From positions 1 through 35,510 of the forward strand of contig NZ_ANOH01000370.1 of NCBI RefSeq assembly GCF_000346505.1: a stretch of 35,510 bases of DNA, written 5' to 3'. This DNA comes from Aporhodopirellula sallentina SM41. Lineage in GTDB: Bacteria > Planctomycetota > Planctomycetia > Pirellulales > Pirellulaceae. Of this stretch, positions 11,474-27,171 are shown one piece after another. Below the pieces are notes generated by a model, which did not search any database, had not been told where the DNA came from, and was given only the letters and a program-made list of their open reading frames with translations. The translations under genes and the position numbers were made by a program. How positions within the stretch are numbered: position 1 is the first letter of the stretch; each line of letters opens with the position of its first letter.

Positions 11474-13992
11474 CGCACCACCTCCCACTGTGATAACAGA
11501 GAATCGGACAACGATGATTCGTCACCAACCTGCTCGCCGGAATACTCGTCAAACATCTCGAGGCCTTCGCGTTCCCATGGCTCGAACCAATTGGTAGCAG
11601 GATAGGACGGATAGCTCCAATTCCACGCATGCACTGCAGAACCGCCTTCCGACGCAAACATGTCACCGTAAGGTCCGGCCTTAAATTCTCCTCCCGGTTC
11701 GCCAACCAGTTGATCCAAATCGCGAAGCTCCGCCTCGATGCCTTTTCCCGCCTGACCAGCATCCAACAGTTTCAAACAGCGATCCGTCACCGCCCCCAAA
11801 CCTCGCACCATGATCGAACTTCGCCACCCGGAGGGAACGTCATCAAACCAAAATGCCATCGCACTGACGCCATGGATGCCTCCACGTCGGCCATGCGGTG
11901 CCGTTTGGTCGCGATACCAACTGATCAACATCGCTCGCCGCCGGGCACGCTGCCTGCCCTCAAAATCACCGACCTGCCGCAAGGCATTTTGAAAGCCCGC
12001 CCGCGATCGCAAACCGGATATCGCGTCATCCGACAGGAGGTCGACTAACCAAATCTCAACGACGTCCGCCACTTCCTGATCGTACCAACGGTAACTCAAT
12101 CGCAACCTCCTCGCCGTCAGGCTCAGATGATCGACAAACGCCACCAACTCTTCTTGTGTAGCATCGTCCTGCCACTGTTGCCATCGAAGCTTCGCCAACG
12201 AAGCGGCTTCCAATCCGTGCTGGACGATTACCACATCGGCGAGCAAAGGCACGCTCTCTCGATCGCCGATCGCCATCCAGGTATCGGGCGACATGTAGTC
12301 GCGTTGCTCAAAACGCTGCACCGCTATTTCGCCATCGATCTCGCCAGGCAAGTTCCCGAGTGCATCGCGTAGATCTAAATCGCCGTATCGCATCGACGTC
12401 GGCCGTGTCGTCACACTATCGCTCAACTGCCGAGCCTCCGGAAACAGCACGGCAAATCGGTCTTCCGTCATTGAGGGAAAACGCGACTTGGCGATCCAAA
12501 CAGGAACACTCGGCGCAACCATGAACACCGATGCCGCGACACCCACCATCGACCAATACTTCCATCCCCGTCGCCCGTCCATGAAGTCTTTCATCAACAG
12601 AAACGTCGAAACGAACGGCAGCGACGCCACCAATAACAACCACGACAATCGCACACCGTTGACGACTCCCGCATTGATCAGCAGTGCCAACGCCACCAAC
12701 GACAACACCGGTGCCAGAAAAGCCGACGCGGCCAACATCGGAACCACTTGGCTCGTCCACTGCGAAACGCCGTAGATCACCACGAACACGAGCAAAATCG
12801 ACAAAAACGACAACTCAAACATCGCCGCACGATGGTAGGTATCCGAATGGCTCGCCGTCCCCAAGAAGGACTGAATCGCCAAGATCACGAGCGCTACCCC
12901 GCACAGCAGACTGACGCCCAACCAGTGTCGCCCCAACCACACTCTTCCGGGCGAAACGCCACGATCCGCCAAGAACTTCAATCGTGTCGCCGAGCCATCA
13001 CCTGCAAAGACGGCAACACCCAACCACGAGACGGCGAGCAACGCTGTTCCGATCCCCGTACCCACCGCCGTCTCGGTCCACCCGGTGAGACGTTCCGTGC
13101 AGTTCGTCAGTACCAACCAACCGATCACGCCGAAAAACAGCGGCACACTCAATCCGATCGACATCCATGGTGATCCGTGAATGGATTGCCACACCATCGA
13201 CGTGTGCGAATCCCGAAACGGCATCACCGTCGGTGCAGAAACATCCGGCGGTCGCCATGCATCGGCCGACGACAATGCGTCTCGCGTGAGCAACTTCTCC
13301 GGTTCATCGGCTTGCAACTCACTCCGTCCGGCACGATAGGAAAGCCATCCGACGACCGGAATCGCGAGCGACGTCACCATCCCCATCACCCACGTCCTCC
13401 AGGCGACGCTCGCGTATTGCACCGGCGACGTATGCGGCAGCGCCATCCAGACCTCAGCGATCACAAACGGCAACAAAGCAAAAGGAATGATCAACACCAG
13501 CGCGGCAAACGCGTTCTTATTCCGCCATGCGGTGTAGAACCCACACAACAAAACGTAGATCGAATGCAAAAACCAAAACGCCGGATGAATCTGCCGCCAC
13601 TCGGAAAAACCGCCCCCGCCGCTGCTGTTCAAACCAGCAACCGCCCCTAGGAATCCGCAACCGATCCACATCAAGACCAAACCGGCAAAGGCAACTACCA
13701 ACTTCGTCACGACAATCGGTTGCCAAGGAATCGGAAGCGAAGCGAGCCAACGCAGCGATCGAGTTTCCTTTTCATGGCTGATCAAGATCGCTCCGGCGCC
13801 GGCCGCAAACAGTGCCGGCATGATCAACGGCACAATGTCCCCCACCGTCCGCAATGAGATATTGACTTGCCGGGACGTCGTCGTCCAAACGATCACCAGG
13901 AACGTCGACACCGCAAACAGTATCCCGATCAACGGCAAGATCTGTTTGGTTTCCTTCCACAACAAACCCTGCCAAACTCGCGTTTCGTTCAT
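11470..13992 (-). CDS. Double-length ABC-2 type permease with C-terminal soluble domain
   Basis: The 840-residue product is about two to three times the length of a usual ABC-2 permease. Residues 1-240 hold about six membrane helices with the family's cytoplasmic block SHEKETRSLRWLASLP. Residues ~290-530 hold a second helical set with a similar block (GSATRLKFLADRGVSPGRVW), suggesting an internal duplication so that one chain supplies both permease halves. Residues ~540-840 are soluble, helical and Trp/Arg-rich, of unknown role. It overlaps the ATPase gene upstream and the companion gene downstream, both by four bases. Substrate is unknown. The GntR/YtrA-type regulator at the head suggests export related to envelope stress or peptide antibiotics, by analogy with YtrA-controlled transporters. 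Confidence 0.82.
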   Translation of the reverse strand: MNETRVWQGLLWKETKQILPLIGILFAVSTFLVIVWTTTSRQVNISLRTVGDIVPLIMPALFAAGAGAILISHEKETRSLRWLASLPIPWQPIVVTKLVVAFAGLVLMWIGCGFLGAVAGLNSSGGGGFSEWRQIHPAFWFLHSIYVLLCGFYTAWRNKNAFAALVLIIPFALLPFVIAEVWMALPHTSPVQYASVAWRTWVMGMVTSLAIPVVGWLSYRAGRSELQADEPEKLLTRDALSSADAWRPPDVSAPTVMPFRDSHTSMVWQSIHGSPWMSIGLSVPLFFGVIGWLVLTNCTERLTGWTETAVGTGIGTALLAVSWLGVAVFAGDGSATRLKFLADRGVSPGRVWLGRHWLGVSLLCGVALVILAIQSFLGTASHSDTYHRAAMFELSFLSILLVFVVIYGVSQWTSQVVPMLAASAFLAPVLSLVALALLINAGVVNGVRLSWLLLVASLPFVSTFLLMKDFMDGRRGWKYWSMVGVAASVFMVAPSVPVWIAKSRFPSMTEDRFAVLFPEARQLSDSVTTRPTSMRYGDLDLRDALGNLPGEIDGEIAVQRFEQRDYMSPDTWMAIGDRESVPLLADVVIVQHGLEAASLAKLRWQQWQDDATQEELVAFVDHLSLTARRLRLSYRWYDQEVADVVEIWLVDLLSDDAISGLRSRAGFQNALRQVGDFEGRQRARRRAMLISWYRDQTAPHGRRGGIHGVSAMAFWFDDVPSGWRSSIMVRGLGAVTDRCLKLLDAGQAGKGIEAELRDLDQLVGEPGGEFKAGPYGDMFASEGGSAVHAWNWSYPSYPATNWFEPWEREGLEMFDEYSGEQVGDESSLSDSLLSQWEVVR

Positions 13993-15011
13993 GACGATTC
14001 TCCTGTCGCGATCACCTCGGGACCGCTCTTCGAATCATCGGGTGAATGATCCCCCGAACCGTCAGACGGCCCGTCCGAACGTCCTGATCCCGGTGGCGGA
14101 TCAGCCGGACCAGAGAAACCTTTGCGCGTATGAGCGATGAAGATTTCCTCCAACGTCATCGCTCGCTCACGAACCCCGACAACGCCTTCGGCCGATTCAA
14201 TGAATGGAATCATCGACGAATCAAAATGGCGGACCAGCACGCGGCGCTGTCGTCCTTGGTTTTCTTCGAGCAGCGTTTGCGCGGGCTCAGGCAACGTCGG
14301 TACCTCGACCAAGGAGTCATCCATCGACACGGTCAACTCCGTCATCGATCCTTTGAGGTCATTGAGCGGTTCGCATGTTTGCAACTTCCCGTTGTGTAAG
14401 ATGCCGATCGTGTCGGCGACCCGCTCGACCTCGTTGATTTGGTGACTCGATAGAAAAACCGTTCGCCCCGAAGCCGCTCGTCCGATCATGCTTTCGAGAA
14501 ACTCGCGTCGCACCATCGGATCCAATCCCGAGGTCGGTTCGTCCAAAATCAACAACTCCGGATCATGGGCGAGCGACAAAGACAACGCGATCTTGGCTCG
14601 CTGTCCTTTGCTGAGCACGCGGATCTTTCGGTCTTCGGGAATCTCGTACCGGGCGATCTGTTCTCGATAGCAATCGTAGAATCCCTCCGGATAAAACGAC
14701 GCCGTGAACCATCCGATCTGGCCCACCGTCATCCAGTCATACATCACCGGATTGTCCGACACGTAGCCGACTCGCCGACGAACCTCCATCGGCTGTTTCA
14801 ACGGATCGAAACCGCACACGTTTGCCGAGCCCCCGGTCGGCTTTTGAAAACCGGTCAGGATGCGAATAAGCGTTGTTTTGCCCGCGCCGTTCTCGCCCAA
14901 CAGTGCGAACACCGTCCCGGGTTGAATCTTCAGATCCACCCCCATCAATGCGTCACAACCACGAAATCGCATCGTCAATTGGTCGGTCGAGATGACTGGG
15001 TTCATGATCAC
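13989..15011 (-). CDS. ABC transporter ATP-binding protein
   Basis: The 340-residue product has all motifs of an active ABC ATPase: Walker A GENGAGKTT (about 38-46), ABC signature LSKGQRAKIALSLSLA, Walker B LLILDEPTSGLD and the switch His in VFLSSHQ. It fits the drug/multidrug-type ATPases paired with ABC-2 permeases. The last ~40 residues are a Gly/Ser/Pro/Asp-rich tail with no likely fold. It energises the permease encoded next, which it overlaps by ATGA (13989-13992). Start is ATG at 15011; a second in-frame ATG lies at 15005. A gap of about 70 bases separates it from the regulator gene upstream. Confidence 0.92.
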   Translation of the reverse strand: MIMNPVISTDQLTMRFRGCDALMGVDLKIQPGTVFALLGENGAGKTTLIRILTGFQKPTGGSANVCGFDPLKQPMEVRRRVGYVSDNPVMYDWMTVGQIGWFTASFYPEGFYDCYREQIARYEIPEDRKIRVLSKGQRAKIALSLSLAHDPELLILDEPTSGLDPMVRREFLESMIGRAASGRTVFLSSHQINEVERVADTIGILHNGKLQTCEPLNDLKGSMTELTVSMDDSLVEVPTLPEPAQTLLEENQGRQRRVLVRHFDSSMIPFIESAEGVVGVRERAMTLEEIFIAHTRKGFSGPADPPPGSGRSDGPSDGSGDHSPDDSKSGPEVIATGESS

Positions 15012-15082
15012 GATCCTGTTCTAAAAAGAGAGTGGGGACACGTTCGAAAGACGCCGCGCGGCGGATAAGACAAGGCGATGGA

Positions 15083-15490
15083 TCACTGCAATTCCGCGAT
15101 CGCTTCGATGGTTCCTTCGAGGCTCCGCAATTGCTTGTCGACGAGTTTGCGAACCTCTTCGGGTGAGAGGCCCGCTTGCAGAGCCTCCGTCAAGACAGCC
15201 GACAAACGTTCGGCCAAGATCGATTGCCGCTGTTTGCGACATCGCTCAACAGCGCCTTTGCAAACGACGACGCCACGTCCGCGGAGCGTTTCGATCACGC
15301 CCTCGGATTGCAGTTCTTGGAACGCGCGAGCGACCGTGTTCGGGTTGACCGCGAGCTGTTGACTCAATTGCCGAACGCTCGGCAGCAACTGCCCGGGCCG
15401 CAGGGTCCGCTCGGCCACCGCAAACTTCACCTGGCGAACGATCTGGGAATAGATCGGAACTCCGTTGGAAGGGTCCACTGTAAAAAACAT
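15083..15490 (-). CDS. GntR-family regulator, YtrA subfamily
   Basis: The product (135 residues from ATG 15490) has a GntR winged-helix domain at about 1-75: PIYSQIVRQVKFAVAERTL, then LLPSVRQLSQQLAVNPNTVARAFQELQSEGVIETLRGRGVVV. The short (~55-residue) helical C-terminal part lacks a FadR/HutC-type ligand domain, which is the mark of the YtrA subfamily. Such regulators head ABC transporter operons and usually repress them. The gene order here (regulator, ATPase, permease) is the classical arrangement. The frame is open to a GTG at 15511, but ATG 15490 is preferred because similarity starts at FFTVDPSNGVPIYSQ and GGGAG lies about eleven bases upstream. A candidate operator lies just upstream. 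Confidence 0.88.
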   Translation of the reverse strand: MFFTVDPSNGVPIYSQIVRQVKFAVAERTLRPGQLLPSVRQLSQQLAVNPNTVARAFQELQSEGVIETLRGRGVVVCKGAVERCRKQRQSILAERLSAVLTEALQAGLSPEEVRKLVDKQLRSLEGTIEAIAELQ

Positions 15491-15513
15491 GTTCGCACCG
15501 ACTCCCAACACTG

Positions 15514-15602: not shown

Positions 15603-15635
15603 CAAAAAAGAGAGACGCGTCGTCAGACGAACGCG
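15603..15635 (-). terminator. Terminator of the redox operon
   Basis: Directly after the TAG of the P-loop ATPase gene, the - strand forms CGCG-(T)-TCGT, loop CTG, ACGA-CGCG, followed by TCTCTC and six T (15609-15604). This is a usable intrinsic terminator and marks the 3' end of the four-gene unit. Confidence 0.6.
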
Positions 15636-15636
15636 A

Positions 15637-16335
15637 CTACTGTTCGGTCACCCGTTCGACGACCTCATACAGATCGTCCCAGAGGTCACGAAGGTTGCTC
15701 ACGTCCGACAGATCGATACCGCCGAGATACCGCCGCACTTCCGTACTGACGTTTCGCTCGTGCTCGGGTGCCTTCGCGGGGGGATCGTGTGCTAAGAGTT
15801 CGCTCACGAGTTCTTCGATCAATTCCGCCGACAAACTCGTTTGATACAACGTCTCAAACCCGGCGACGCTCGCGTGGCTGGTCATCAGACAAAACCTGCC
15901 TCGACGTTTGATCTGAATTGACAGCCACATCCGATAGACCGCTGGCAACTGCTCGCCTCCGTCAATAACCAACACCCCGCCTGGTTCAGTCTGTCTCGCG
16001 AGCCGACGAACCGTCGCGATATTGGCGACCGTTTCACGCAGATGCCATCGCGAACCACCTTCAGGCAGCGTCAACTGAACCCACTGACCGCCGGGCATCT
16101 CGTCGGCGAGCGTTGCGGCGAGTTCCCGCAGCAACGTTGACTTGCCCGTCCCATGATCGCCAACGATCATCCCGCAGCGATGCTGCCGAAGTGAGTCCAC
16201 GAGCGAGCGAACAAACTCCTCGTTTGATTCATCGCGAATCCCAGGTTTCGATCGAAACGTGAGCGATCCCGGCCGAACGTATCGGCTAGCGAACGGGTTC
16301 GAATGGGGAGACGGCGGTGGATTGTTGGCTGACAT
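15637..16335 (-). CDS. Small P-loop ATPase of the redox operon
   Basis: From ATG 16335 the product has 232 residues. Walker A is VGDHGTGKST (about 58-67, Lys65). Walker B is GVLVIDGGEQL (about 120-130, Asp125), followed by a sensor-like CLMTSH. The layout is that of small AAA/ExeA-like ATPases (AAA_22 type) without a further recognisable domain; the last ~45 residues are charged and helical. No membrane segment or signal is seen, so it is cytoplasmic. The gene starts about 50 bases inside the end of the decahaem cytochrome gene in another frame (ATG 16344 is an alternative), showing tight coupling. Its role may be assembly, haem or protein delivery, or regulation of the redox complex; the sequence does not decide. 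Confidence 0.78.
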   Translation of the reverse strand: MSANNPPPSPHSNPFASRYVRPGSLTFRSKPGIRDESNEEFVRSLVDSLRQHRCGMIVGDHGTGKSTLLRELAATLADEMPGGQWVQLTLPEGGSRWHLRETVANIATVRRLARQTEPGGVLVIDGGEQLPAVYRMWLSIQIKRRGRFCLMTSHASVAGFETLYQTSLSAELIEELVSELLAHDPPAKAPEHERNVSTEVRRYLGGIDLSDVSNLRDLWDDLYEVVERVTEQ

Positions 16336-18736
16336 CACCGACATGATACCGGTGACAGGTCGTGCAGTGATCCCCTGCGGCGCTAGCCGTATGACAATGG
16401 GCACACGCGGCTTTGCGAAGCGGCAGGAAGTCCGAATGACCGTGTCGCGTCGTTTCATCCGCGTCGGTATCTCCAAACGCCAGATGTGGCGACACATCGG
16501 ACGACGCATCCGGCCGGGCCGACACGTGATTGAGCAACCCAATCGTGTCATACAACGCATCACCGGTGAGCGGCGACGGCTGGGTCGCTGCCGCGAAGGA
16601 AGGAGAACTTGCTTCCGATTCCGAACCGGGCCGCATCGAGTGACAATGTTCGCAGTTTTGCAGCGCCGTGATATCCAGGTGCGGACGGTGTGAGAACTTC
16701 GTCAAACGGTTGCGGAGCGAACTCTCGTGCGACTCTCTCCATGGCAAACTGGTGTGGCAGGAAACACACGCCGCGACAGCAGGTTGCTGCATCACCAGTT
16801 CACGGATCACCGGGTCACTCTTCGATGCCACTTCCACGAGGCTACGCAGCACCGCGTCGGAGTGCCCGGAACCTCGGTAGCGGATCGACAACGTCAAATC
16901 GTCGCGATACCAACCGCCGAGCGACTGGGCCCGCGCCGCGTCGAATCGCTTGCCGAGTTCGTCTTCCCAATTCGCCAAGCCCCGATCGGTCGCGCCGCCA
17001 CCGGGCAGTAACAAATTCGACTGGGTGTCCCCATTCGATGACGAACCGCCTAGCAACAAAGGATCGTCGTTCGCTCCGCCGGACAGCAACAAATCGTCGC
17101 CGCCCTCCGCCGACCAATCCACCAACAAATCGCCATCGCCTGAATCCGGTGTCGCCGCGAGCGAATCCGACGCTGCAGACTGCCTCGCCGAGAAACGATC
17201 GCTCGCCGAAACGTTCGATCGTCCGAACCATTCCGAGGCCGCGTCACGCATCACCTGCGTCGGGAACGAACCCGCGAAGGCTTTGGAGGTTTCCAAATCA
17301 GCTCCCGCTCTTTGGGCGGCATCCAGCAAGAACGCCTGCCCATCGATCGACAACGCGATCGCGAATTCTCGCACGGCTTTGCCCAATCGAACCGCGAGTT
17401 CCTGATTGCTCCTGGACTGCCAATCGACCAACGCCAAATTCGACAACGGTGCAAAATCAACCGACGGGTCTTGGTCATGAAGCAACAACAGCATCCACGC
17501 CGATAGTTTTCCATCAGGCGGGCCGATCGCGTCCTCGGGCCACGATTCGATCTGCTCAGCGACCTCTCGCGGCAGAATCGGTAACTCGATCAATGCAGGA
17601 CCGCTCGCGATCTGTACCCCGAGCGACTCTTCGTGGCAGGCGGCACAGGTCGCCTCAAACGGCAACGTTCCGACGATCGAATCATTCAACAAAGCGTCAC
17701 GGGTATCGCTCTGAGACGCCGGATCGATCATGTGACAGGATCGGCAATCGAACTGCGACGCGAGCGTCTGATTCGGCCCTTCGGCTTCGGCCGTTTTGGG
17801 AAAATGCATGTTCGCGTGACGCGAGTGATCGAACGCGATCGCATGTTCGCTCGACGTCGGCCAATTGGTAAATTCCGGATGCGAATCAGCAAACGATCCG
17901 AACCGATTGGAGTGACACGTTTGGCAACGTGAATCCGCAATCGCTTTCAAATCAGCGTCCGCCCCGTGGTGCTCGCGGTGACAAACGCTGCACGCGACGT
18001 CGTCTTGCGAAACCGCCGGCGGGGGCCACCACTTCGAAACGCCCGAACCCGACACCGTACGAACGGACGACGAGTCCGTCGCTGCGGCGAGCATAATCTC
18101 ACGTCGTTGTTCGCCAATCGCGAGACGGGTTTCCGCGCTCACGTTGTGTGCCGACGTTGCCAGGTCCACCGGGATTCGGTCGTGGTGACACGCGACACAC
18201 CGATCGGTCATCGTCAGGGATTCTTCGGTTCCGACATGACCGGCCTCTTTCATCGCCATCCAGGTTTCTGCGGACACGTTGCCGTGACAAACCGTGCAGC
18301 CACCGGCCGTCAAATCACCCGTGAGGATTTGAGCATGTGACGTCGAAAGATTTCCCGGACGCACAAATTCTGGGGCCAACGAAGTGCCGAATACTCCCAC
18401 GAGAGCAAACGCGAACAGCAACAGCACACCGGCCGTCCATCGTCGTCTGCGTCCCGCCCATGTCGGAATCGGCCGACACGGTGAAAAATCGTTTGCCCCC
18501 TTTTTCCCGGCGGTCTTTTTCTTGCCCGAACCGGATCCCGAATCGTCATGGCATCGCCCGGCGAACGGACACTCGCCGGCAATGGTCGGTCCTTCGGCGC
18601 AAGGCGTGGCGGTCTGCGTGTCGCCCGCGGAATGGTTACCGTGCTGGCCGCGTCCACACAAAAACGGTCGGCCCGGACGCTGAATCCGGGGTGGATCAGG
18701 CAGATCGACTTCGTCGCGTCGGGGAGATCGACTCAT
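16286..18736 (-). CDS. Membrane-anchored decahaem cytochrome c
   Basis: The 816-residue product has ten CxxCH motifs: Cys at about 147, 180, 249, 271, 331, 364, 657, 695, 778 and 791. Six fall in an N-terminal cluster (147-368) and four in a C-terminal cluster (657-795). Between them is a ~290-residue haem-free region with Asp/Gly/Leu-rich repeats near 532-580 (GDLLVD, DDLLLSGGA, NDDPLLLGG). Extra His residues near the motifs could be distal ligands. One membrane helix lies at about 101-120, after an unusual ~100-residue leader with Cys at 27, 46, 56, 62 and 87. By topology the haem domains are periplasmic and the leader cytoplasmic. The ATG overlaps the upstream stop as ATGA, supporting this long form. 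It probably passes electrons to or from the cytochrome b and Fe-S proteins encoded upstream. Confidence 0.85.
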   Translation of the reverse strand: MSRSPRRDEVDLPDPPRIQRPGRPFLCGRGQHGNHSAGDTQTATPCAEGPTIAGECPFAGRCHDDSGSGSGKKKTAGKKGANDFSPCRPIPTWAGRRRRWTAGVLLLFAFALVGVFGTSLAPEFVRPGNLSTSHAQILTGDLTAGGCTVCHGNVSAETWMAMKEAGHVGTEESLTMTDRCVACHHDRIPVDLATSAHNVSAETRLAIGEQRREIMLAAATDSSSVRTVSGSGVSKWWPPPAVSQDDVACSVCHREHHGADADLKAIADSRCQTCHSNRFGSFADSHPEFTNWPTSSEHAIAFDHSRHANMHFPKTAEAEGPNQTLASQFDCRSCHMIDPASQSDTRDALLNDSIVGTLPFEATCAACHEESLGVQIASGPALIELPILPREVAEQIESWPEDAIGPPDGKLSAWMLLLLHDQDPSVDFAPLSNLALVDWQSRSNQELAVRLGKAVREFAIALSIDGQAFLLDAAQRAGADLETSKAFAGSFPTQVMRDAASEWFGRSNVSASDRFSARQSAASDSLAATPDSGDGDLLVDWSAEGGDDLLLSGGANDDPLLLGGSSSNGDTQSNLLLPGGGATDRGLANWEDELGKRFDAARAQSLGGWYRDDLTLSIRYRGSGHSDAVLRSLVEVASKSDPVIRELVMQQPAVAACVSCHTSLPWRESHESSLRNRLTKFSHRPHLDITALQNCEHCHSMRPGSESEASSPSFAAATQPSPLTGDALYDTIGLLNHVSARPDASSDVSPHLAFGDTDADETTRHGHSDFLPLRKAACAHCHTASAAGDHCTTCHRYHVGDVSQQSTAVSPFEPVR

Positions 18737-19668
18737 GATTCAACGAACCGCATCGCAAGAATTCCGTGAATGATCGCCATCACCAACAAGGCAACCGACG
18801 CGGCACTGTGCAGCATCACCCAAACCCGCAATCGCAACTGCAGGGCATACTGGTAATCCAAATCATCGCGTCGACGCACCAACGCGGCGATACGCCCGCA
18901 GACGCGGCAATCTTCTTCTTCGAGGTATCGGTTCAATTCGACGAGCCCCGCGAGCACCCGACGTCGTCGAACCGATGTCGGGTAGATCAGATACAACCAC
19001 GACGGCTTACTAGAGAGATAACGACTAAGATAACGACGATGAAATTCGCCGATCACCGAGATCGCGGCCGGATTGGTCAGCGACTGGACTTCATCCGAAA
19101 CGCTGCGCGAAATCTGCTCGCGGTACCACGGGATCTGATCCAAACGGACTTGTTCGCCTACGTTCGTTAAACGCCAAGGAATGCGGCGACTCGCGATCAG
19201 CCCGTACACACCTGACGCACTCACAAACCAAAACAAACCGCTGAGCGTTCCCTCCAAATACCCGGTCGCGATCAAACGCCCGTGCAAAATCGCGGGAACG
19301 TGCAACAAAAACACTCCGACCGCAAACAGCCCGGTGTAGATGTGAACCTGGGTCCAAACGCTCATCGTCCCGAGCGGCAAGACCGGAATACGACGCCGCA
19401 CACCGATCAACACTAAAAGGAACAGACAACTGATCAACATCCATCCCGTCATCACTCCGGAATGCAGGAGCGCTGCGTGCATCCCGGAAGCGAGCAACGC
19501 GGCCAAGGCCAGCGACACCACCACGACTCCGCACGCGACCACCCGCCGACGCCGAAACGAGTACGCTCGCCCCGCACCGGTCACTCGGTTCACGAGTCCA
19601 GACGCAGCCGCCTTGCATCGCTGAGTGGTCGAGATCGCCCCACCGTGCCTTCGTTCAACGACACTCAT
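18733..19668 (-). CDS. Cytochrome b-like membrane protein, probably dihaem
   Basis: The 311-residue product has about five membrane helices (roughly 43-65, 72-90, 104-128, 140-160, 283-306). Helix 3 carries His109 and His123; helix 5 carries His287 and His301. Both pairs are 14 residues apart, the spacing used by cytochromes b and b561 to hold two b haems across the membrane. A ~120-residue soluble part between helices 4 and 5 contains CRVC (254-257). No named family is certain; it is closest in style to the cytochrome b561/ferric reductase-like membrane subunits. It overlaps the Fe-S gene upstream and the decahaem gene downstream by four bases each. Role inferred: carries electrons across the membrane between the cytoplasmic Fe-S protein and the periplasmic decahaem protein, perhaps via menaquinol. 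Confidence 0.78.
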   Translation of the reverse strand: MSVVERRHGGAISTTQRCKAAASGLVNRVTGAGRAYSFRRRRVVACGVVVVSLALAALLASGMHAALLHSGVMTGWMLISCLFLLVLIGVRRRIPVLPLGTMSVWTQVHIYTGLFAVGVFLLHVPAILHGRLIATGYLEGTLSGLFWFVSASGVYGLIASRRIPWRLTNVGEQVRLDQIPWYREQISRSVSDEVQSLTNPAAISVIGEFHRRYLSRYLSSKPSWLYLIYPTSVRRRRVLAGLVELNRYLEEEDCRVCGRIAALVRRRDDLDYQYALQLRLRVWVMLHSAASVALLVMAIIHGILAMRFVES

Positions 19669-21572
19669 GTGCGCCTCCGTAGCCAGTCTTCCAACGGCGG
19701 TGATTCGCTCAAATCAATCCGCACCAACGCGTCATGAGGACACGCGGCGGCACATGCCGGTCCGCTCGGCAGTCCGCTGCACATGTCGCATTTGGTTGCC
19801 TTCGTGATCGGCTGTTTGCTTTTCATATCGAGGTAAGGCCGTCCCGATGGATCCGAGATCGCCACCATCTCAATGTTGTCGTACGGGCACCCTTTCGCGC
19901 AGACACCACAACCGATGCAGATGTTTTCGGAAATGTTGACCAACCCCGTCGACTCGTCGCGATGCAAGGCTCCCGTCGGACAACCGATCATGCAAACCGG
20001 ATCGGTGCAGTGCATGCACGCCTCAACGAACTGCAACCGTTCGTGATGGTTACCGATGCGGGCAAAACGCGGGTTGCCGTCATGGACGCTGGCACACGCT
20101 TTCACGCAATCGTCGCATCGCGTGCAGCGGTGCAGGTCGATGATCATCGCCTGGCGGCCGTTGTTGTATCGATTCTGAACGATGAACTCCAACAATCCGG
20201 TCGGTTCGAACGACGTTCCGGTCGAACTCGGTAGATCATCCCATGTCTTCGCCGTAGTCGATACACTCGCGGTCTCGGTCTCCTCCGTCGTCGACTGTGC
20301 ATCGTCACGACGAGATTCCTCACGTGCGACGCTGCGTCGTTCTCGTTTGGTCGGCCCCTGTGGCCGATGCAACATCGCCTCGGCGGCGTTCGGCGGCAGT
20401 TCGGACCGACGGATGTGCGGCAGGACTTCTCGAGCAAAACACTCGACCGGTATGTGCAGCGTATCGAGAAAACCGACCGCCCGCAGAGAATGCTGCAAAG
20501 GCATGGGTGCCCCGTTTCCACCGGTCACACTGAGCGTGATCTCCTCGAGCCCGAACACATGGCCTTTGCCGAGGTACGCCGTCGTTCGCTGTGCCGAACC
20601 ATAGTTCTGACAGACCCGACCGAACCCGCTGCGGACGACAATCAGGTCGGTCACGTGATGCCCTTCCTGAGCAACCACCGGTTCCGACTCGATCTGTTGG
20701 GCCGGCGAGAGTTTGCGTGTTTTGGAATAGTCCGCATTCCATTGCAGACGACCGAACGACCTCAACTGCGTGTGCTCGACCACGTTGCGAAGGTTGGACT
20801 CGGGAACGAACCTCAACAGCGGAATCTCTTTGAGATGGATCGCGAGCCAATGCTGCCGGTAATGCTCCTCCATCCGCTCGGCGAACGCCGTGTCCCGCTG
20901 CAGCATCTTGAGCCCCTGCAACCGAATTTCGAGCAACGTTGCGTTCTCACCAGCAACGACCGTTGCACCGTGAGGACCGCGGAGCATCGTGGCGACTTCG
21001 CCGAACAACTCTCCCGCGACGAGTCTCGCCGTTTGACCGGCACGAACCAGACCACCGAAATCCTGCAGGTACAACGTCGGCTGAGCGTCAGCATCGCCGG
21101 CGATCGGCGACGTGTTCTCGTTTCCCGACGCCCGGTGTTCAGTCCCCGGACGATCATGCAATTCGACGTCGGGTGTGACGTTTTCCGGACGCCGAGCCTC
21201 ACGCACGCCGCTCGGCCGCAAGAATTGCCACAACGCGTCCGACCAACTGCGTTTCTCCACCTCGCGGCGACCGAGCACGTCCGGAGGCAGGGGGCGCGTG
21301 ATTAACTCGGCGTTCCCCTCGAGCACCAAAAATGCGCTGTTGGCGTAATCCCCCTCACGCACGATCACCTGACCGGGCGCGAACCGATGCAACCGACAGT
21401 CGTTCTTCAAAACGCCATCGAGTGGAATTGATTTCGGAAACTGACTCGCGTCCAACGCGGCAAACGGCATCCGCGTGAGCAACCAATCGACGTCCGCATC
21501 GGTCATGTGCGGGTCCATTGGCTCATCCCAACGTCGGGGACGAGGCACGGCGATGCTATCAGCAGACGACAT
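19665..21572 (-). CDS. Cyclic-nucleotide-binding-like domains fused to four-cluster ferredoxin
   Basis: From ATG 21572 the product has 635 residues. Residues ~45-220 form one cNMP-binding (CRP-like) beta-barrel, interrupted by a ~75-residue insertion; its cassette reads GELFGEVATMLRGPHGATVVA. Residues ~275-385 form a second, more diverged barrel (GHVFGLEEITLS, then HSLRAVGFLDTLHIPVECF). After a charged linker (400-455), residues 475-620 form a DmsB/NrfC-type ferredoxin. Four Cys groups are visible (483-493, 519-531, 552-562, 595-611), sixteen Cys in all, enough for four [4Fe-4S] clusters. There is no signal peptide or Tat motif, so it is cytoplasmic. The first cassette lacks the usual Arg before Ala-Thr, so nucleotide binding is uncertain. 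A TTG at 21620 would add 16 residues but is less likely. It is the first gene of the redox operon. Confidence 0.87.
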   Translation of the reverse strand: MSSADSIAVPRPRRWDEPMDPHMTDADVDWLLTRMPFAALDASQFPKSIPLDGVLKNDCRLHRFAPGQVIVREGDYANSAFLVLEGNAELITRPLPPDVLGRREVEKRSWSDALWQFLRPSGVREARRPENVTPDVELHDRPGTEHRASGNENTSPIAGDADAQPTLYLQDFGGLVRAGQTARLVAGELFGEVATMLRGPHGATVVAGENATLLEIRLQGLKMLQRDTAFAERMEEHYRQHWLAIHLKEIPLLRFVPESNLRNVVEHTQLRSFGRLQWNADYSKTRKLSPAQQIESEPVVAQEGHHVTDLIVVRSGFGRVCQNYGSAQRTTAYLGKGHVFGLEEITLSVTGGNGAPMPLQHSLRAVGFLDTLHIPVECFAREVLPHIRRSELPPNAAEAMLHRPQGPTKRERRSVAREESRRDDAQSTTEETETASVSTTAKTWDDLPSSTGTSFEPTGLLEFIVQNRYNNGRQAMIIDLHRCTRCDDCVKACASVHDGNPRFARIGNHHERLQFVEACMHCTDPVCMIGCPTGALHRDESTGLVNISENICIGCGVCAKGCPYDNIEMVAISDPSGRPYLDMKSKQPITKATKCDMCSGLPSGPACAAACPHDALVRIDLSESPPLEDWLRRRT

Positions 21573-21606
21573 GAAGTGAGAGAACCGAATGAAGCGAGAG
21601 AACCGA
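21572..21606. repeat. 17-bp tandem repeat abutting the Fe-S gene start
   Basis: TGAAGTGAGAGAACCGA (21572-21588) and TGAAGCGAGAGAACCGA (21590-21606) are repeated with one mismatch at an 18-base period. The repeat ends in the ATG of the Fe-S gene. It keeps frame and would encode FIRFS/FSHF-type repeats if translation began further upstream. Confidence 0.6.
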
Positions 21607-21625
21607 GGCGGTTTGGGCAAAGTTC

Positions 21626-21762: not shown

Positions 21763-22233
21763 TTAGCGGTTTTGGAACATGCTAGCGTCCCAAACCAAAT
21801 TACCGTTTCTCAGCCGTACCCGTGGCGGAGTAATCGCCAGCACCTCGACCTCGCCGACCTTGTCCCCGACGACGACAAAACGACTCTGATCATCGATCTT
21901 GAGAATCGCCTGCTGTTCCTTCAGCTTGGCAAAACCCACCACGCTGATGTTGCTCGCGGTGATTTTTTTGTTCTGAGGAGCCGCGCCTTTTCGCACGATT
22001 TGAAACGGATCTTGGCGATCAGGAAACGGAACCACAAACCCTTCCCCGGACGTCCGCGTCACGTCCAACTCCGGGGGCTGATCCATCGATGCAAACGCAG
22101 ACGACTTCTGCATCGACATCTGTTCAATGCGGGAGATCGTCTCGGGCTCGATCCCGCACCCTCCGGCGAACATCAATCCCATCAAAACGCCTAATTGGCA
22201 AACAACTCCGCTTCGGCGGTGAAACACATGCAT
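21763..22233 (-). CDS. PilP-like pilus assembly protein
   Basis: The product (156 residues from ATG 22233) begins with a lipoprotein-like signal ending GLMFAGGC, so it may be lipid-anchored through that Cys. The C-terminal half (NISVVGFAKLKEQQAILKID, FVVVGDKVGEVEVLAITPPRVRLRNG) matches the small beta-domain of PilP/GspC proteins. These connect the inner-membrane PilMNO platform to the secretin. The frame is open to a GTG at 22245 overlapping the secretin stop (GTGA); ATG 22233, nine bases after that stop, fits the signal peptide better. Position after the secretin reverses the common pilP-pilQ order. The gene is last in the cluster, followed by a hairpin at 21626. Confidence 0.72.
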   Translation of the reverse strand: MHVFHRRSGVVCQLGVLMGLMFAGGCGIEPETISRIEQMSMQKSSAFASMDQPPELDVTRTSGEGFVVPFPDRQDPFQIVRKGAAPQNKKITASNISVVGFAKLKEQQAILKIDDQSRFVVVGDKVGEVEVLAITPPRVRLRNGNLVWDASMFQNR

Positions 22234-22241
22234 CGAAGGTC

Positions 22242-24500
22242 TCACTGGTTCATAGGAATGGGGGCAGGGATGTTTTCATAGGGAGCCACCTCGACCGGCG
22301 AATGACCCGACAACACCGATTGGTTGTTGTGTGTCCCCAACATTTCCGAATACCCGTCACCGATCGACGCACCATCAACGTAAGACGATCCGTTCGTCGC
22401 GGCCGGATAGTAAGGTTGGTTCTCGTCGATCGAATAGGAGAACGGAGTGATCCCGACACCACCGAGCATCTGCAGCTCCGTGCTACCGCCATTGATCCGT
22501 GCCCGTGGATGGTGGTTCGGACAATTCAAATCGTTGCAGTATGGCGTTTGCGGACAAAGGCTCGCGTAAGGAATCTGGTCGAGTTGGCACATCGCGATCC
22601 GTGCCGCCTGTCGTTCGCGTGCCAATCCAGGATGACACGGGCTAACGATTTCCGGCTTCAAGAACACGATCAATTCGCTTTCAACGATCGAAGTCTTATG
22701 GCTCTGGAACAGTTTGCCGACGTACTTCATCTCTTGCAGGTAAGGAATCCCGTAGACGTTTTCGACAATCTTCTTCTGCCGCAGCCCCCCCATCACGAAC
22801 GTCTGCCCGTTGGCGACCCGTACGGTCGTTTCGGCTTCGCGTTCATCAATGATCGGAAGGAAGTTAACCGTTCCCGTTTGAGTGCTGTGTTTCGGTTTGA
22901 CAACCATCTCGATGATGCCGTCGTTGCTGATCCGTGGACGAACGACGAGCGTGATCCCGGCCTCTTTGAACTCAACGGTTGGGATTTGTTGCGTGATCAC
23001 CGAAGTCCCTTCGTCACTCGTGGACTGCTCCGGTGTTTCCGCTGTCCGGTACGGGATCTGTGTCACAATTTTGATCGTGGCATCCCGACGGTCTCCCACC
23101 GTGATCGAAGGGTTGGCGAGCAGTTTTGCTTCCGCTGTGCTGTCGAGGGCCTCCACGATCAACGATGCGTTGAAGTCTTTTGCGATCGATCCCATCGTTA
23201 ACGTAGACGCACCTGCTTCGGCGATCGCTCCGGTAGGCACGAGACTGGCGAACTCGAGTGTTTTCGAGGCGGCTTGTCCGCCCAATGTTCCGCGTCCCCA
23301 CTGGATCCCGAGGCTTTCGAGTTCTTCCAGGTTCACGTCATAGATCAATGCCGAGATTCGCACCTGCGCCCGCGGCACGTCGAGTTGTTGGAACGCTTCG
23401 GCGGCGAGCGTCAGTTGCTCCGGCGTGCCGCGTACCATGATGCGGTTCTCTTCTTCGTAGACCGCAACGATCGGTGCGTCGGAGTTGGTTGCCGCGGCCG
23501 TCGATGAGGCATCGGGGGTCGACGCGACCACGCCGCTGCCGAGTGCCTCGCTGAGCGAGACGCCCATCTCTGCCGCCTCGGTGTACTGAGGGGTAAAGTA
23601 CGCGATGCGAGTTCGCGCCCAACCCACGCTTCCCGGCACGCTCGCACCGAGGGACGACGTCGCCGTCCCCGACTGGGCCGCGGAAGATCCGGTTCCCGTC
23701 GAGAGTTCGCCGAACATTCTCTCAACGCTGGCGATGCGTTCGGGTGAGTCGATCACCAACACCCGTCCGTTGCCAAACGCTTGGATTTTCCCTCGATCAC
23801 TGAGCAACATTTTTGCCGCTTCGATCATCGAACTCTGCTGCTGGGAGTTTGCGACCGGCAACGCGATCGTGCGTGAACGGAACTCGGGACTGCTCGTTCC
23901 GACTTCATCAATCGGAAGCACCACCAAACTGCTGCCCGCCGAGGTGTAACCGTATCCCGACGACGTCAGGACCGCCGCGAGCACGTCACGCAGTGGCGCG
24001 TCATTGAACACGCCCGAGACTTCGCCGGTGACTTTCTCTCCGGCAACGATGTTGATTTGCCACAACTCCGAAAGCGAGAACACGACTTCCTGCAGCGGCA
24101 TCTTCCGAAACGTGATGCTGCCGCGGCGGTTGAGCGCCTCTTCAATGGTCGCTTGAGCCGGAGTCTGACAACTATCCGATGAGGACGATGATGGTGCGGT
24201 CTCGTTCGAAACGTTTGCCGCATGAATACGGTTGGCGTCCGCCGAACCCGACGCGTTTAATGAAAACGAATGCGTCGCGTTAGGATTCGTGGGTGCGGAA
24301 TCGCTCTGCGCCGGAGCAGGAAGTGTTTGGGCGGACGCTTCCTGCGATGACACACCGAGTGGAGAAACCGTTGGAGATCCGCCGGGCTCAGCGGACTGGG
24401 TTGTCGGTAGTGGGGCGAGTACAAACGCGGCAATCAGGCAACCGCAGAATCGCAGTTTCCAATGCCAGTTCGTTTGTACCGCCATGCCTTCCGTGGCCAT
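22242..24500 (-). CDS. Secretin (PilQ/GspD/MshL-like) outer-membrane channel
   Basis: The 752-residue product has a signal peptide (to about residue 37) and a Ser/Thr/Ala-rich linker to ~115. Secretin N-domains follow: STN-like ITFRKMPLQEVVFSLSELW (129-195), further N-modules to about 400, then the secretin pore domain (~405-625). That domain includes LANPSITVGDRRDATIKIVTQIPY, VEFKEAGITLVVRPRIS and VANGQTFVMGGLRQKKIVENVYGIPYL. It ends SELIVFLKPEIV, as in type II/IV secretins. A ~130-residue extension follows, with a Cys-rich segment (MCQLDQIPYASLCPQTPYC, then NCPNHH) that is not standard. It forms the outer-membrane ring of a pilus or secretion system with the PilMN- and PilO-like proteins encoded upstream. 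Start ATG 24500; ATG 24485 is also possible. Confidence 0.9.
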   Translation of the reverse strand: MATEGMAVQTNWHWKLRFCGCLIAAFVLAPLPTTQSAEPGGSPTVSPLGVSSQEASAQTLPAPAQSDSAPTNPNATHSFSLNASGSADANRIHAANVSNETAPSSSSSDSCQTPAQATIEEALNRRGSITFRKMPLQEVVFSLSELWQINIVAGEKVTGEVSGVFNDAPLRDVLAAVLTSSGYGYTSAGSSLVVLPIDEVGTSSPEFRSRTIALPVANSQQQSSMIEAAKMLLSDRGKIQAFGNGRVLVIDSPERIASVERMFGELSTGTGSSAAQSGTATSSLGASVPGSVGWARTRIAYFTPQYTEAAEMGVSLSEALGSGVVASTPDASSTAAATNSDAPIVAVYEEENRIMVRGTPEQLTLAAEAFQQLDVPRAQVRISALIYDVNLEELESLGIQWGRGTLGGQAASKTLEFASLVPTGAIAEAGASTLTMGSIAKDFNASLIVEALDSTAEAKLLANPSITVGDRRDATIKIVTQIPYRTAETPEQSTSDEGTSVITQQIPTVEFKEAGITLVVRPRISNDGIIEMVVKPKHSTQTGTVNFLPIIDEREAETTVRVANGQTFVMGGLRQKKIVENVYGIPYLQEMKYVGKLFQSHKTSIVESELIVFLKPEIVSPCHPGLARERQAARIAMCQLDQIPYASLCPQTPYCNDLNCPNHHPRARINGGSTELQMLGGVGITPFSYSIDENQPYYPAATNGSSYVDGASIGDGYSEMLGTHNNQSVLSGHSPVEVAPYENIPAPIPMNQ

Positions 24501-24533
24501 AAGCGTTCAGTTCATCATAAGGACAAGTTCTGG

Positions 24534-24553
24534 GACGGACGGGGCAGTCCGTC
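24534..24553. other. Stem-loop between PilO-like and secretin genes
   Basis: GACGGAC (24534-24540), loop GGGGCA, GTCCGTC (24547-24553) sits in the only gap (24501-24563) of the pilus cluster. There is no T run. It might affect processing or relative expression of the secretin mRNA. Confidence 0.45.
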
Positions 24554-24563
24554 ACCGTCATAT

Positions 24564-25196
24564 TCAGTCGATCATCGCAAACGCGTCTTCCATCCCCGCA
24601 GGGGCATGCATGAGACCAAAGAGCGTCATGTTCATCTCTAAGCTGAGTACCGAATCACCTCCAGCGACCGGTTCTAAAGTCAACGTGTTGATGTTCAACA
24701 ACCAGTGATGATCATCAACAACACGAACGATTTCCAATACGGCCTCGAGCGGTCCGACGACCGACAAGGACACTTCATGTGAGTGGAGATTGAATTCCGA
24801 TTCAGTTCCGAAGTCGGGCGATCGACGGCTGCGTGGGTCATCATCTTCCGTGCCCCACGATCGCTTCTGCTCGTCTTCGATTTCCAACGCACGCAAACTG
24901 CCGCCACAGTCGCGGATCATCGTGATCAGTTCGTCTCGCACCACCGGAATGCGTGATTGGGTCACACATTGCTTTACGAGTTGCAGTTTTTGTTCTTGCA
25001 ACTTCGATTCGATTCGGTGCAGACGCACGTCACGCGATTGCGATTGCTCGAAATCTTTCTCGAGCTCCGAGAGGGCACGATGGTCCTCGCGAAGCCTAAG
25101 ACCTTCATCGACTAGTGGATACCCGATCACGATCAAGGCGACAAAACTACCACACGCAACAATCGCTCTGATTACCCGATCGTTCTGTTTATTCAT
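24564..25196 (-). CDS. PilO-like inner-membrane protein
   Basis: From ATG 25196 the product has 210 residues. A short cytoplasmic N-terminus leads to one membrane helix (about 9-28, IRAIVACGSFVALIVIGYPL), then a coiled coil (~33-75). A periplasmic ferredoxin-like domain follows, with HEVSLSVVGPLEAVLEIVRVV and LLNINTLTLEP. This is the PilO/GspM layout. PilO pairs with the PilN part of the upstream fusion to form the periplasmic alignment platform. The ATG follows one base after the TAA of the fusion gene, so the two are translationally linked; the open frame to 25265 is ignored because it would overlap that gene. Confidence 0.78.
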   Translation of the reverse strand: MNKQNDRVIRAIVACGSFVALIVIGYPLVDEGLRLREDHRALSELEKDFEQSQSRDVRLHRIESKLQEQKLQLVKQCVTQSRIPVVRDELITMIRDCGGSLRALEIEDEQKRSWGTEDDDPRSRRSPDFGTESEFNLHSHEVSLSVVGPLEAVLEIVRVVDDHHWLLNINTLTLEPVAGGDSVLSLEMNMTLFGLMHAPAGMEDAFAMID

Positions 25197-25197
25197 C

Positions 25198-26868
25198 TTA
25201 CAACTCCTGCACCGGTTCGGCGTCCGCACTATCGACACCAATCGTTTCACCGGTGTCGGCGGCAACCCACGACAGTCGCATTTCGAACTGCGATTCGTTC
25301 GCTACCACACCGCTCGTCGTAGCCAGCAACGCGACCTGATCGATCCCCGGAATCCGGCGAAGGTATCCGACGATTTCATAGATCTCCGCCTCGTTGGCGG
25401 TGCGACCGGTCAACATGATGTTGTGTTCCACGTCAAAACGCACCGCCGTGAGAGCGGCCTGCGGAGGCAGACACTGCGTGATTTGACGGGTCAAATCCAC
25501 AATCGGTGGCGACACGGTTTTCTTCTGAATTTGACCGAGGTGTTGGACCCACGAACGGTCCAACTGCAACGACGCCATCCGAACCCGCGTGGCTCGCATT
25601 TGGTCTTCAACAAATTGACGTTGTTGGTGTTTCTGTTCGGCTTCCCGGCGCAGCGACCCGACCCACAAAGATGTCGTCAGCAGCAAAACCGCCGCAACCG
25701 CGAGAGGCCACAAAGCCAACACCGCGCGGATCACTTTGGATTGAGCGCGGTCACGACGGATCGTTTGCAAAAGGTCCGGCGGGCTCTGCATCACCGTTGG
25801 TTGGATCAATGGCAACACCGAGGCAAACGCCGCAACCCCGTCGGATTCAATCTCCTCGGGAACGTTCAGGTTCACGCAGGACGTGGGCAGATGAAACGGT
25901 TTGGCATCGAGATTGGTTTTCTGGCCGAAGTGAGCAAGCACCTCGTCGACTTTATCCGGCGGGCCGCCCACGTAGAGATCACTCAATTCGCTCTGCGTCA
26001 TCCCTCGGTGACGTTGGCAAAACCGACGCAACCTCGCGAGGTGCTGATCGACCGCGATCGCGAACGTCTGCGCATCGTGTGCCGCCGCAGGTCGGTAATC
26101 CAACAACAATCGACCTTGGTGGGTGATGCCAACTTCCCACGATTGACCGAACGAGTCCGCAATCAAAATGGGTTTCTCGTCATCAATCCCGAGCATCCCA
26201 ACCATCCGCGCCATGCTGACCAGCGAAGGCTCGATCCAAGCCACATCGAGATGACAACTTACGAAGGCTTCATAAAGAGCATTCAGCCGCGTGAAATTAC
26301 CGACCGCCGTCAACGCGTGATCGATACCGGGGCTCAACGTTTCGCGAATTTGACCGATGAGTTTTCCACCGGGACCGAGCTGCAGGTAACGTGGGATCCG
26401 TCCGGCGAGTGCCCCGAGTTCTCCTTCCACGTCATCGACGGTCCCCGTAGAAATACGGGTCACACAGAAGTCTCCGGTCAGCGAAACCGCAACGCTCTCG
26501 CCTCCAATTTTGTGCCGTGTCGCGAGTGTATCGATCGCGTCTCGCAAACGTTGCCAACCGTCACCGTGTATCCAATCGAATGCGGTACGGGTTGGTTGCG
26601 AACCAGATGACGTTCGACGCTGGTCATCGTCTGCGATCCGCTCCTCGGCGACATCGCCTTCGTATTCCCCTGGGACTTCACCAACGGACGAATCCAACGA
26701 CTTCGTCAAACGGATGTAGTCCACGTCGACATCGACCGGTCCCCCTTCGCGACGCGTCGCCACCACCAAAATGACCCGATCGCACTCGATCCGAAATGCA
26801 AAACGACGAGAGACACCGGGATCCGGTTCTGTATCGCGTTGTCGGAAAGCTGAGAAAGACGAGAGCAT
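25198..26868 (-). CDS. PilM-PilN fusion (GspL-like) pilus platform protein
   Basis: From ATG 26868 the product has 556 residues. Residues ~20-365 are an actin-like ASKHA domain of PilM type, with segments GESVAVSLTGDFCVTRI, LDVAWIEPSLVSMARMVG and KPILIADSFGQSWEVGIT. An acidic insertion lies near 60-90. A membrane helix lies at about 381-403. The remainder (405-545) is a short coiled coil and a PilN-like ferredoxin fold (TAVRFDVEHNIMLTGRTANEAEIYEIVGYLRRI). Normal pilus systems encode PilM and PilN separately. Type II GspL joins similar parts, so this could be a GspL-like protein. A GTG at 26925 could add 19 residues, less likely. First gene of the cluster. Confidence 0.8.
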   Translation of the reverse strand: MLSSFSAFRQRDTEPDPGVSRRFAFRIECDRVILVVATRREGGPVDVDVDYIRLTKSLDSSVGEVPGEYEGDVAEERIADDDQRRTSSGSQPTRTAFDWIHGDGWQRLRDAIDTLATRHKIGGESVAVSLTGDFCVTRISTGTVDDVEGELGALAGRIPRYLQLGPGGKLIGQIRETLSPGIDHALTAVGNFTRLNALYEAFVSCHLDVAWIEPSLVSMARMVGMLGIDDEKPILIADSFGQSWEVGITHQGRLLLDYRPAAAHDAQTFAIAVDQHLARLRRFCQRHRGMTQSELSDLYVGGPPDKVDEVLAHFGQKTNLDAKPFHLPTSCVNLNVPEEIESDGVAAFASVLPLIQPTVMQSPPDLLQTIRRDRAQSKVIRAVLALWPLAVAAVLLLTTSLWVGSLRREAEQKHQQRQFVEDQMRATRVRMASLQLDRSWVQHLGQIQKKTVSPPIVDLTRQITQCLPPQAALTAVRFDVEHNIMLTGRTANEAEIYEIVGYLRRIPGIDQVALLATTSGVVANESQFEMRLSWVAADTGETIGVDSADAEPVQEL

Positions 26869-27171
26869 CGGCGCGTGTTCGAAAAGGCGTAGCGAGTGTC
26901 TCGCCCGGACCGTATCCCGTTGCACTGAAGCGTAATTCGGATGCGTTGGATTCGGTTCCGTTGCGGTAAATCCGTATCACGTGCACTGGCATTTTGCCGC
27001 TGCAAAGGCAGCTTGCAGGTGCACTGAAATCGGCCGCTCGGCGAGAGCAATGGGTATGAAATCCCCTCGAACGATTTGTCGTCGTCCGATTCGCCCGCAT
27101 CAAAACGGGGCAGGGAACGTGATACACTGACGCTTACCTATCTCCTCCACTTCCCTGCGGATTCCTTCATT
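26869..27171. other. Divergent intergenic region, pilus cluster / secreted protein
   Basis: This 303-base gap separates divergent genes and must carry promoters for both. It contains two copies of GTGCACTG (26981-26988 and 27019-27026) flanking a small stem (GCTGC/GCAGC, 26999-27012). TACACT near 27122-27127 could be a -10 for the + strand gene, with no good -35. No gene is supported here. Confidence 0.4.

Follow-up and report, generated by a model that had tools for sequence, protein, structure and literature searches.

In a 35,510-nucleotide contig of Aporhodopirellula sallentina SM41 (NZ_ANOH01000370.1; this whole stretch is hereafter the window), four open reading frames (ORFs), denoted A, B, C and D, follow one another on the minus strand between positions 15637 and 21572. 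Three of these genes (A, B and C) make up a conserved block and probably encode the inner-membrane module of an electron conduit of the PCC4 type, a putative porin-cytochrome cluster that was predicted in 2017 from genomes of iron oxidisers (He et al. 2017, PMC5566968). The module appears to be dispersed, with candidate outer partners encoded elsewhere in the same genome, and to have a cyclic-nucleotide side for which we found no description; its function, direction and gating are predictions from sequence. Gene D, which encodes a P-loop ATPase, is judged not to be part of the system. An initial annotation, made from the sequence alone, had presented the four genes together as a candidate undescribed redox system; its observation of the genes is confirmed, and its interpretation is partly right.

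The overlaps of 4, 4 and about 50 bases that the initial annotation reported agree with the ORF coordinates (4 bases for A/B, 4 for B/C and up to 59 for C/D), and its descriptions of the four products are borne out by domain matches, histidine pairs, ten CXXCH motifs and a Walker A motif. All window features given here and below lie on the minus strand. Gene A (19665..21572) encodes a protein of 635 amino acids (aa), a putative cytoplasmic subunit for electron entry or exit, in which tandem cyclic nucleotide monophosphate (cNMP)-binding domains precede a four-cluster [4Fe-4S] domain; the ATG start at 21572 is backed by the relatives, and a longer version with a TTG start at 21620 exists. Pfam matches include cNMP_binding (65 bits), several Fer4 models above the cut-off and PF13247 (39.9 bits against a cut-off of 26.2). 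The first cNMP-binding domain, delimited approximately by Pfam and alignment, spans residues 45-240 or so (20853..21440) and contains a long insertion; the second, placed by alignment and with equally approximate limits, covers about residues 243-390 (20403..20846); and the ferredoxin domain, with 16 cysteines, extends over about residues 478-620 (19713..20141). Each of these cysteines is kept in 95 or 96 of the 96 rows of an alignment from which seven loci with a split or distant A and frames of up to 540 aa had been dropped, with identical ends collapsed. No hydrophobic segment was detected in A at the hydropathy cut-off used, and the earlier statement that A carries no export signal stands. 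By sequence, the closest solved structure to the ferredoxin domain is HycB3 of HDCR (7qv7_A); the predicted structure of A has a mean pLDDT of 62.4 and underlies no claim made here.

Gene B (18733..19668) encodes a 311-aa, five-helix membrane protein that we consider a putative di-haem cytochrome b. The helices in the predicted model comprise residues 38-65, 70-93, 102-123, 137-170 and the end of 251-309, helix 4 being missed by the hydropathy cut-off alone. A WX3HX13H motif is found on each of helices 3 and 5 (W105/H109/H123 and W283/H287/H301), and an SGXXG motif on helix 4. Both HX13H pairs are invariant in all 21 aligned rows, as are W105 and G153, with S152, G156 and W283 conserved in at least 90%. 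Five transmembrane helices, two WX3HX13H motifs and SGXXG are the features given for the PCC4 inner-membrane protein (PMC5566968), and B possesses all of them. Pfam gave no FRD match to B, the best hit being DUF4405 below the cut-off (E 0.016), and a sequence search of the PDB returned no match under E 0.07.

The product of gene C (16286..18736) is an 816-aa, membrane-anchored decahaem cytochrome c with ten CXXCH motifs between residues 147 and 795 (16352..18298), arranged in groups of six and four on either side of a long linker. Ten motifs are present in 23 of the 25 C rows, and the remaining two (L042, L045) are cut by contig ends; the conservation of these motifs and of the 16 cluster cysteines of A excludes chance as the source of these features. 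The sole hydrophobic segment of C, residues 102-120 (18377..18433), would be the anchor; because an arginine-rich stretch precedes it, the positive-inside rule places the N-terminus inside and the haems, in all likelihood, outside. Ahead of the anchor lies a cysteine-rich segment (residues 27-88; 18473..18658) with one C..GP...C repeat, which would accordingly be cytoplasmic and could bind metal. By a simple pattern count over 96 C sequences, duplicate and truncated frames included, two copies of the repeat occur in 38, one in 37 (the window's protein among them) and none in 21. Pfam gave no match to this segment in three C N-termini, the sole weak match spanning the anchor of the window's C; the segment goes unmentioned in the portions of the PCC4 account on which we draw (PMC5566968) and is apparently new. 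A PDB sequence search with C returned a single octahaem protein at E 9.9.

The case for a conserved block rests on a comparison of 60 genomes, namely the window's own (G000) and 59 relatives. Strong matches to B (E <1e-27) are found at 23 places in 22 genomes, compared with 26 of the 60 genomes at E 0.001; the four genomes with weak matches only are G015, G033, G057 and G058, and the loci fetched for weak matches (L047, L048, L050, L052) are other gene sets. At all 23 strong-B places, A lies upstream and C downstream, with C cut by the contig end in two, and a search with the A alignment recovered full-length A in exactly the same 22 genomes. A scan of genomes of named species yielded at least 577 confirmed relatives of A; among the best 80 loci, from which all locus counts below are taken, A is followed next by B in 78 and the block includes C in 73, four of the misses (L117, L104, L110 and L119) being at contig ends. 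Outside the Rhodopirellula group, relatives of the block occur in Verrucomicrobiota, Alphaproteobacteria, SAR324 and Nitrospinae, among others. No frame in 30 loci was the best match of two of the families, that is, no A/B/C fusions were detected. The check by gene neighbourhoods that the initial annotation had envisaged for its four families is thus positive for A, B and C and negative for D. A-B-C most likely carries electrons across the membrane, its cytoplasmic end sensing a ligand, so that the earlier idea of a conduit gated from the cytoplasm is retained, in conditional form, for the three genes, and the ATPase is lost from it as a subunit.

The core of this block is not undescribed, as the initial annotation had supposed: it matches Subgroup II of PCC4, which comprises an Fe-S gene, an inner-membrane protein, cytochromes with 4, 5 and 10 haems, a porin and a redox gene, and which has Planctomycetes among its carriers (PMC5566968). 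The two share an Fe-S gene with PF13247 directly upstream of the gene for the five-helix protein, and a decahaem cytochrome gene; in the wider gene set of the relatives, they also share the tetrahaem and pentahaem cytochromes, the porin and a redox gene upstream of the tetrahaem gene (PMC5566968). Unlike Subgroup II, the window holds only the Fe-S, membrane-protein and decahaem genes. Genome profile searches found no porin, tetrahaem or pentahaem gene in the window; these partners are on other contigs, and the flavoprotein was not found.

Among the best 80 loci, a tetrahaem gene lies within 2.5 kb of A in at least 40, and within 9 kb of A are found a flavoprotein gene in at least 36, a pentahaem gene in at least 14 and a barrel gene in at least 14, the numbers being minima, since many of the loci are cut short. 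The flavoprotein of the relatives contains FAD, NAD and [2Fe-2S] domains; the putative barrel is recognised by the character of its sequence, a C-terminal aromatic residue in several members and the place of its gene. For each of the four partners (pentahaem, flavoprotein, tetrahaem and barrel) an alignment was used to search the 60 genomes; for the two cytochromes and the barrel, cut-offs were set at gaps in the scores after the tables had been seen (about 700 bits for the pentahaem protein, 390 for the barrel and 180 for the tetrahaem cytochrome); at looser limits the tallies are 45, 31 and 39 of the 60, respectively. Tetrahaem and strong B occur together in 22 genomes, B only in none, the partner only in one and neither in 37. 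The corresponding numbers are 22, 0, 2 and 36 for the barrel, and the same for the pentahaem protein provided that G029, whose match is partial, is included (21, 1, 2 and 36 without it). The association of the three partners with B yields Fisher p values from 7e-13 to 2e-15, and from 1e-9 to 2e-10 when the window's genus is collapsed to G000 alone, values that shared ancestry inflates even after the collapse, the counts not being independent of it. Two genomes of the same genus, G006 and G008, have no strong match to A, B or any of these three partners.

The window's own genome carries the pentahaem and barrel genes side by side on one contig (C129), and the tetrahaem gene on another (C12); the linkage between the two cannot be judged because the former pair lies near the end of its contig and the latter contig is only 3.2 kb long, so that the surroundings are largely unseen. 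The initial annotation had found no catalytic oxidoreductase subunit (molybdopterin or NrfA-like) in this set and hence no terminal partner; the tetrahaem, pentahaem and barrel genes on other contigs supply candidate partners, short of the final donor or acceptor. In a genome that consists of a single contig (G002), the scatter is not an effect of assembly: there the block (at about 6.62 Mb), the pentahaem and barrel genes (about 2.57 Mb) and the tetrahaem gene (about 5.11 Mb) are more than 1 Mb apart. In the tree of A (78 rows, midpoint root), 34 of the 35 rows on the window's side are without an adjacent tetrahaem gene, compared with 38 of 43 with one on the other side, although contig ends affect some of the labels and some of the core-only labels stem from short flanks (e.g. 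L096, L124). A break-up of the cluster in the window's group would lead to such a split. Dispersal of PCC4-type parts in this lineage is apparently a new observation.

The cytochrome c of the block and the putative outer pentahaem protein share a sequence feature of their own. C contains on average 2.75 D(x)LL repeats per protein, compared with 0.59 after shuffling (n=91), and the pentahaem protein (e.g. L187:6524-8632) 4.24, compared with 0.39 (n=21), whereas A, B and the barrel show no enrichment; four or more are found in 24 of 91 C proteins and 9 of 21 pentahaem proteins, compared with none of 310 other frames of at least 400 aa in the same loci. A docking motif common to the two proteins is possible.

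Several observations, in addition to the effect of ancestry on the counts, weigh against the assignment of A-B-C to a conduit of the PCC4 type. A Foldseek search with the model of B gave no decisive fold (best E 0.79, within helical-bundle noise), STEAP1 and cytochrome b561 being the only membrane haem proteins recognised among the matches listed, and Pfam gave no match to the barrel protein. With flanks of about 9 kb, two loci (L069, L072) contain A and B without C, and one from Bythopirellula (L095) contains the flavoprotein, the tetrahaem cytochrome and A without B or C. The partners, too, are found apart from the block: G045 has all three without B, on a contig that ends there, and G027 has the pentahaem and barrel genes without B. 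The pair in G027 (L191, on C23, 7466-11640) stands in a genome with neither B nor a strong tetrahaem match. The flavoprotein does not track B at all: a match that reaches the ferredoxin end is missing in five of the 22 strong-B genomes (G000, G003, G009, G023, G025) and present in B-less genomes such as G026, G048, G050, G056 and G057. No full-length flavoprotein of the PCC4 type was detected in the window's own genome, where the search gave two incomplete matches, covering positions 66-325 and 119-333 of the 427 in the model; partial matches there that are NqrF-like by our own reading were not accepted as the PCC4 flavoprotein.

Gene D (15637..16344) encodes a 235-aa P-loop ATPase with the Walker A motif GDHGTGKS and matches to AAA_16 and AAA_22 above the Pfam cut-off, and its position makes a transcript shared with A-B-C probable. 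The initial annotation assigned it to the complex as a fourth subunit, for assembly or control. Overlap with C and linkage to C in nine of the 11 same-genus genomes with a strong B, the window included, speak for such a complex, but D occurs in 55 of the 60 genomes, with or without A-B-C (Fisher p 0.64 for association with B), including G006 and G008, which lack a strong A or B. At 17 fetched loci with an unlinked D (L170-L186), its neighbours are different ones, and a single frame family recurs beside D in 11 of these; beyond part of the genus, D sits elsewhere and in other company. Because D is present regardless of A-B-C and is otherwise accompanied when unlinked, we rejected it as a member of the redox system; the four-subunit complex is thus very improbable, and a role of D in assembly or control is not borne out. 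D can be described as a widespread planctomycete P-loop ATPase with recurring neighbours elsewhere.

Under the proposed mechanism, a cytoplasmic partner would exchange electrons with A, whose four clusters would be linked through the two b haems of B and the ten c haems of C to the tetrahaem cytochrome and a pentahaem cytochrome held in an outer-membrane barrel, facing outside; electron entry may be gated by the pair of cNMP domains in A. We are inclined, with some reserve, to a net outward flow from a cytoplasmic reductant to an acceptor at the outer surface, because the relatives add a flavoprotein with FAD, NAD and [2Fe-2S] domains and modules like NuoE/F and NuoG are found at a paralogous locus of the same genome, described below.

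The opposite direction, inward to quinone, was proposed by He et al. (PMC5566968). For the present system this would mean that the pentahaem/barrel pair takes electrons from a donor outside the cell, Fe(II) or Mn(II) for example, and that these pass via C and B to the quinone pool, with A exchanging electrons with a cytoplasmic partner. The occurrence of PCC4 in marine Zetaproteobacteria that oxidise iron and in genomes from drinking-water filters speaks for this direction, as does the haem-ligand spacing of B, which according to He et al. is both bc1-like and FRD-like (PMC5566968). Quinone reduction, however, requires neither four [4Fe-4S] clusters nor the NAD-type flavoprotein near the block in relatives nor the NuoE/F of the paralogue, and we regard inward flow as the less probable course. 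Cultured carriers are mostly aerobic heterotrophs, which also counts against it. Still less probable, in our assessment, is that A-B-C delivers electrons only to the periplasm, to reductases or peroxidases, and that the outer-membrane partners belong to a separate system of similar distribution. The placement of block and partners on different contigs in the window's species would be compatible with such a division, as would the loci that lack parts of the block (L095, L069, L072); yet the barrel and pentahaem genes are within 9 kb of A in 14 of the best 80 loci, and strong matches to all of the families are jointly missing in G006 and G008.

The cyclic-nucleotide side of the PCC4-type conduit favoured here is best considered separately. 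The cNMP-binding cassette carries a characteristic glutamate and arginine. In the first cNMP domain of A, E192 and R198 are invariant (96 of 96 each), and in the second, where the cassette was placed by eye, E344 is kept in 96 of 96 and R364 in 91 of 96, both being present in the window's protein. Of the 36 loci among the best 80 that include the flavoprotein, 16 also have a gene for a divergent class III nucleotidyl cyclase no more than 9 kb from A; such a gene is found, too, beside the flavoprotein gene in L039, L040 and L045 of a first sample of loci; a match to Pfam Guanylate_cyc was shown for the cyclases of L114 and L047, the others being recognised by a profile built in this analysis. 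Against cyclic-nucleotide control stand the histidine that the window's protein has at the cassette arginine position 201 (arginine in 82 rows of the 96, histidine in 13 and glutamine in one), the lack of any detected cyclase gene beside the window's operon, and the spread of cyclase matches over 56 of the 60 genomes. The window's genome is among the 56, with one match on contig C189. Given this spread, the presence of a cyclase is by itself uninformative, and it is adjacency that is informative. Control of the conduit by a cyclic nucleotide is plausible, more so in the relatives than for the window's protein. More tentatively, and with appreciable doubt, we suggest that the tandem cNMP domains, often with a cyclase encoded nearby, switch on and off the flow of electrons into a chain made up of a cytochrome b resembling NOX, a wire of ten haems and a cytochrome-barrel pair in the outer membrane, the cysteine-rich domain of C serving as a metal site or docking element. 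In literature searches whose scope excluded most subscription papers and all preprints, none of the listed titles and abstract openings told of a cNMP-linked conduit of this kind, and the word 'cyclic' is absent from the main text of PMC5566968; the cNMP domains, with a cyclase gene near many of the relatives' loci, are an apparently new trait of such a conduit.

The window's genome also contains loci related to the block. A second B-like locus (L163, on C189, 1.7-18.5 kb) encodes a homologue of B together with two cytochromes, one decahaem and one tetrahaem. It also encodes a NuoE/F-like protein and a protein of 850 aa that joins NuoG-like Fer2/Fer4, cNMP-binding and Fer4 domains, with further 4-, 5- and 10-haem frames alongside. 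Another locus (L164, on C90, 6836-10301) contains a pyridine-nucleotide oxidoreductase with a BFD domain, a 675-aa frame that also matches B, adjoining a 478-aa decahaem cytochrome; frames of about 660-830 aa that match part of B, perhaps of the same kind, are found in many planctomycete genomes.

Upstream of A, the window encodes a secretin (22242-24500), a PilN-like protein (25198-26925, below the Pfam cut-off) and small neighbours, together spanning 21763-26925. Among the neighbourhoods fetched for the B search, secretin and PilN-like genes adjoin the block only in L026 and L027; an assignment of D to this upstream operon was rejected, with secretin or PilN homologues in none of the 17 fetched D loci. 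Downstream of D (11470-15511) are frames that, named by eye, resemble a GntR-type regulator, an ABC transporter ATPase and a permease, and homologues of these transporter genes adjoin C in L029. Directly past the stop of D there is a terminator-like stem-loop (15616..15635) followed by a T-rich tail, as the initial annotation had noted for the end of the operon. Such sites are, however, about as frequent in shuffled sequence (9 in the region against 7.9 +/- 3.0), so that only position favours this one as a terminator.

With the inner half of PCC4 present in relatives of cultured Rhodopirellula, and its outer parts spread over other places in those genomes, the system becomes testable; the literature passages on PCC4 that we consulted report no experiment on it. 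Gene-neighbourhood searches can miss conduits that are dispersed in this manner, and a cNMP switch on such a conduit, if real, would be a kind of control that our literature searches did not find described.

Among the known systems, the DmsB/NrfC-type proteins with which the initial annotation compared A resemble it in the Fe-S fold only: an export signal is missing from A, its gene has no NrfD-like neighbour, and the haem-ligand pattern of B is that of the PCC4 membrane protein. The Hmc, Ohc and Tmc complexes of sulfate reducers combine a cytoplasmic Fe-S subunit, a membrane cytochrome b and a periplasmic multihaem cytochrome c, as A-B-C would; we know of no cNMP domains or porin partners in these complexes. 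He et al. compare the haem-ligand pattern of the PCC4 membrane protein with those of the ferric reductase/NOX family and bc1 cytochrome b (PMC5566968). According to the same comparison, NOX and FRD proteins resemble B in that two helices bear the HX13H pairs that would bind two b haems (PMC5566968); unlike them, B lacks a FAD/NAD domain and is not matched by the FRD model of Pfam, and its electrons would come from A. Finally, MtrCAB, PioAB and OmbB-OmaB-OmcB likewise bring together multihaem cytochromes and an outer-membrane barrel (PMC5566968), but where those porin-cytochrome conduits have CymA, ImcH or CbcL at the inner membrane (PMC6295460), the inner-membrane end here would be an Fe-S/cytochrome b module.

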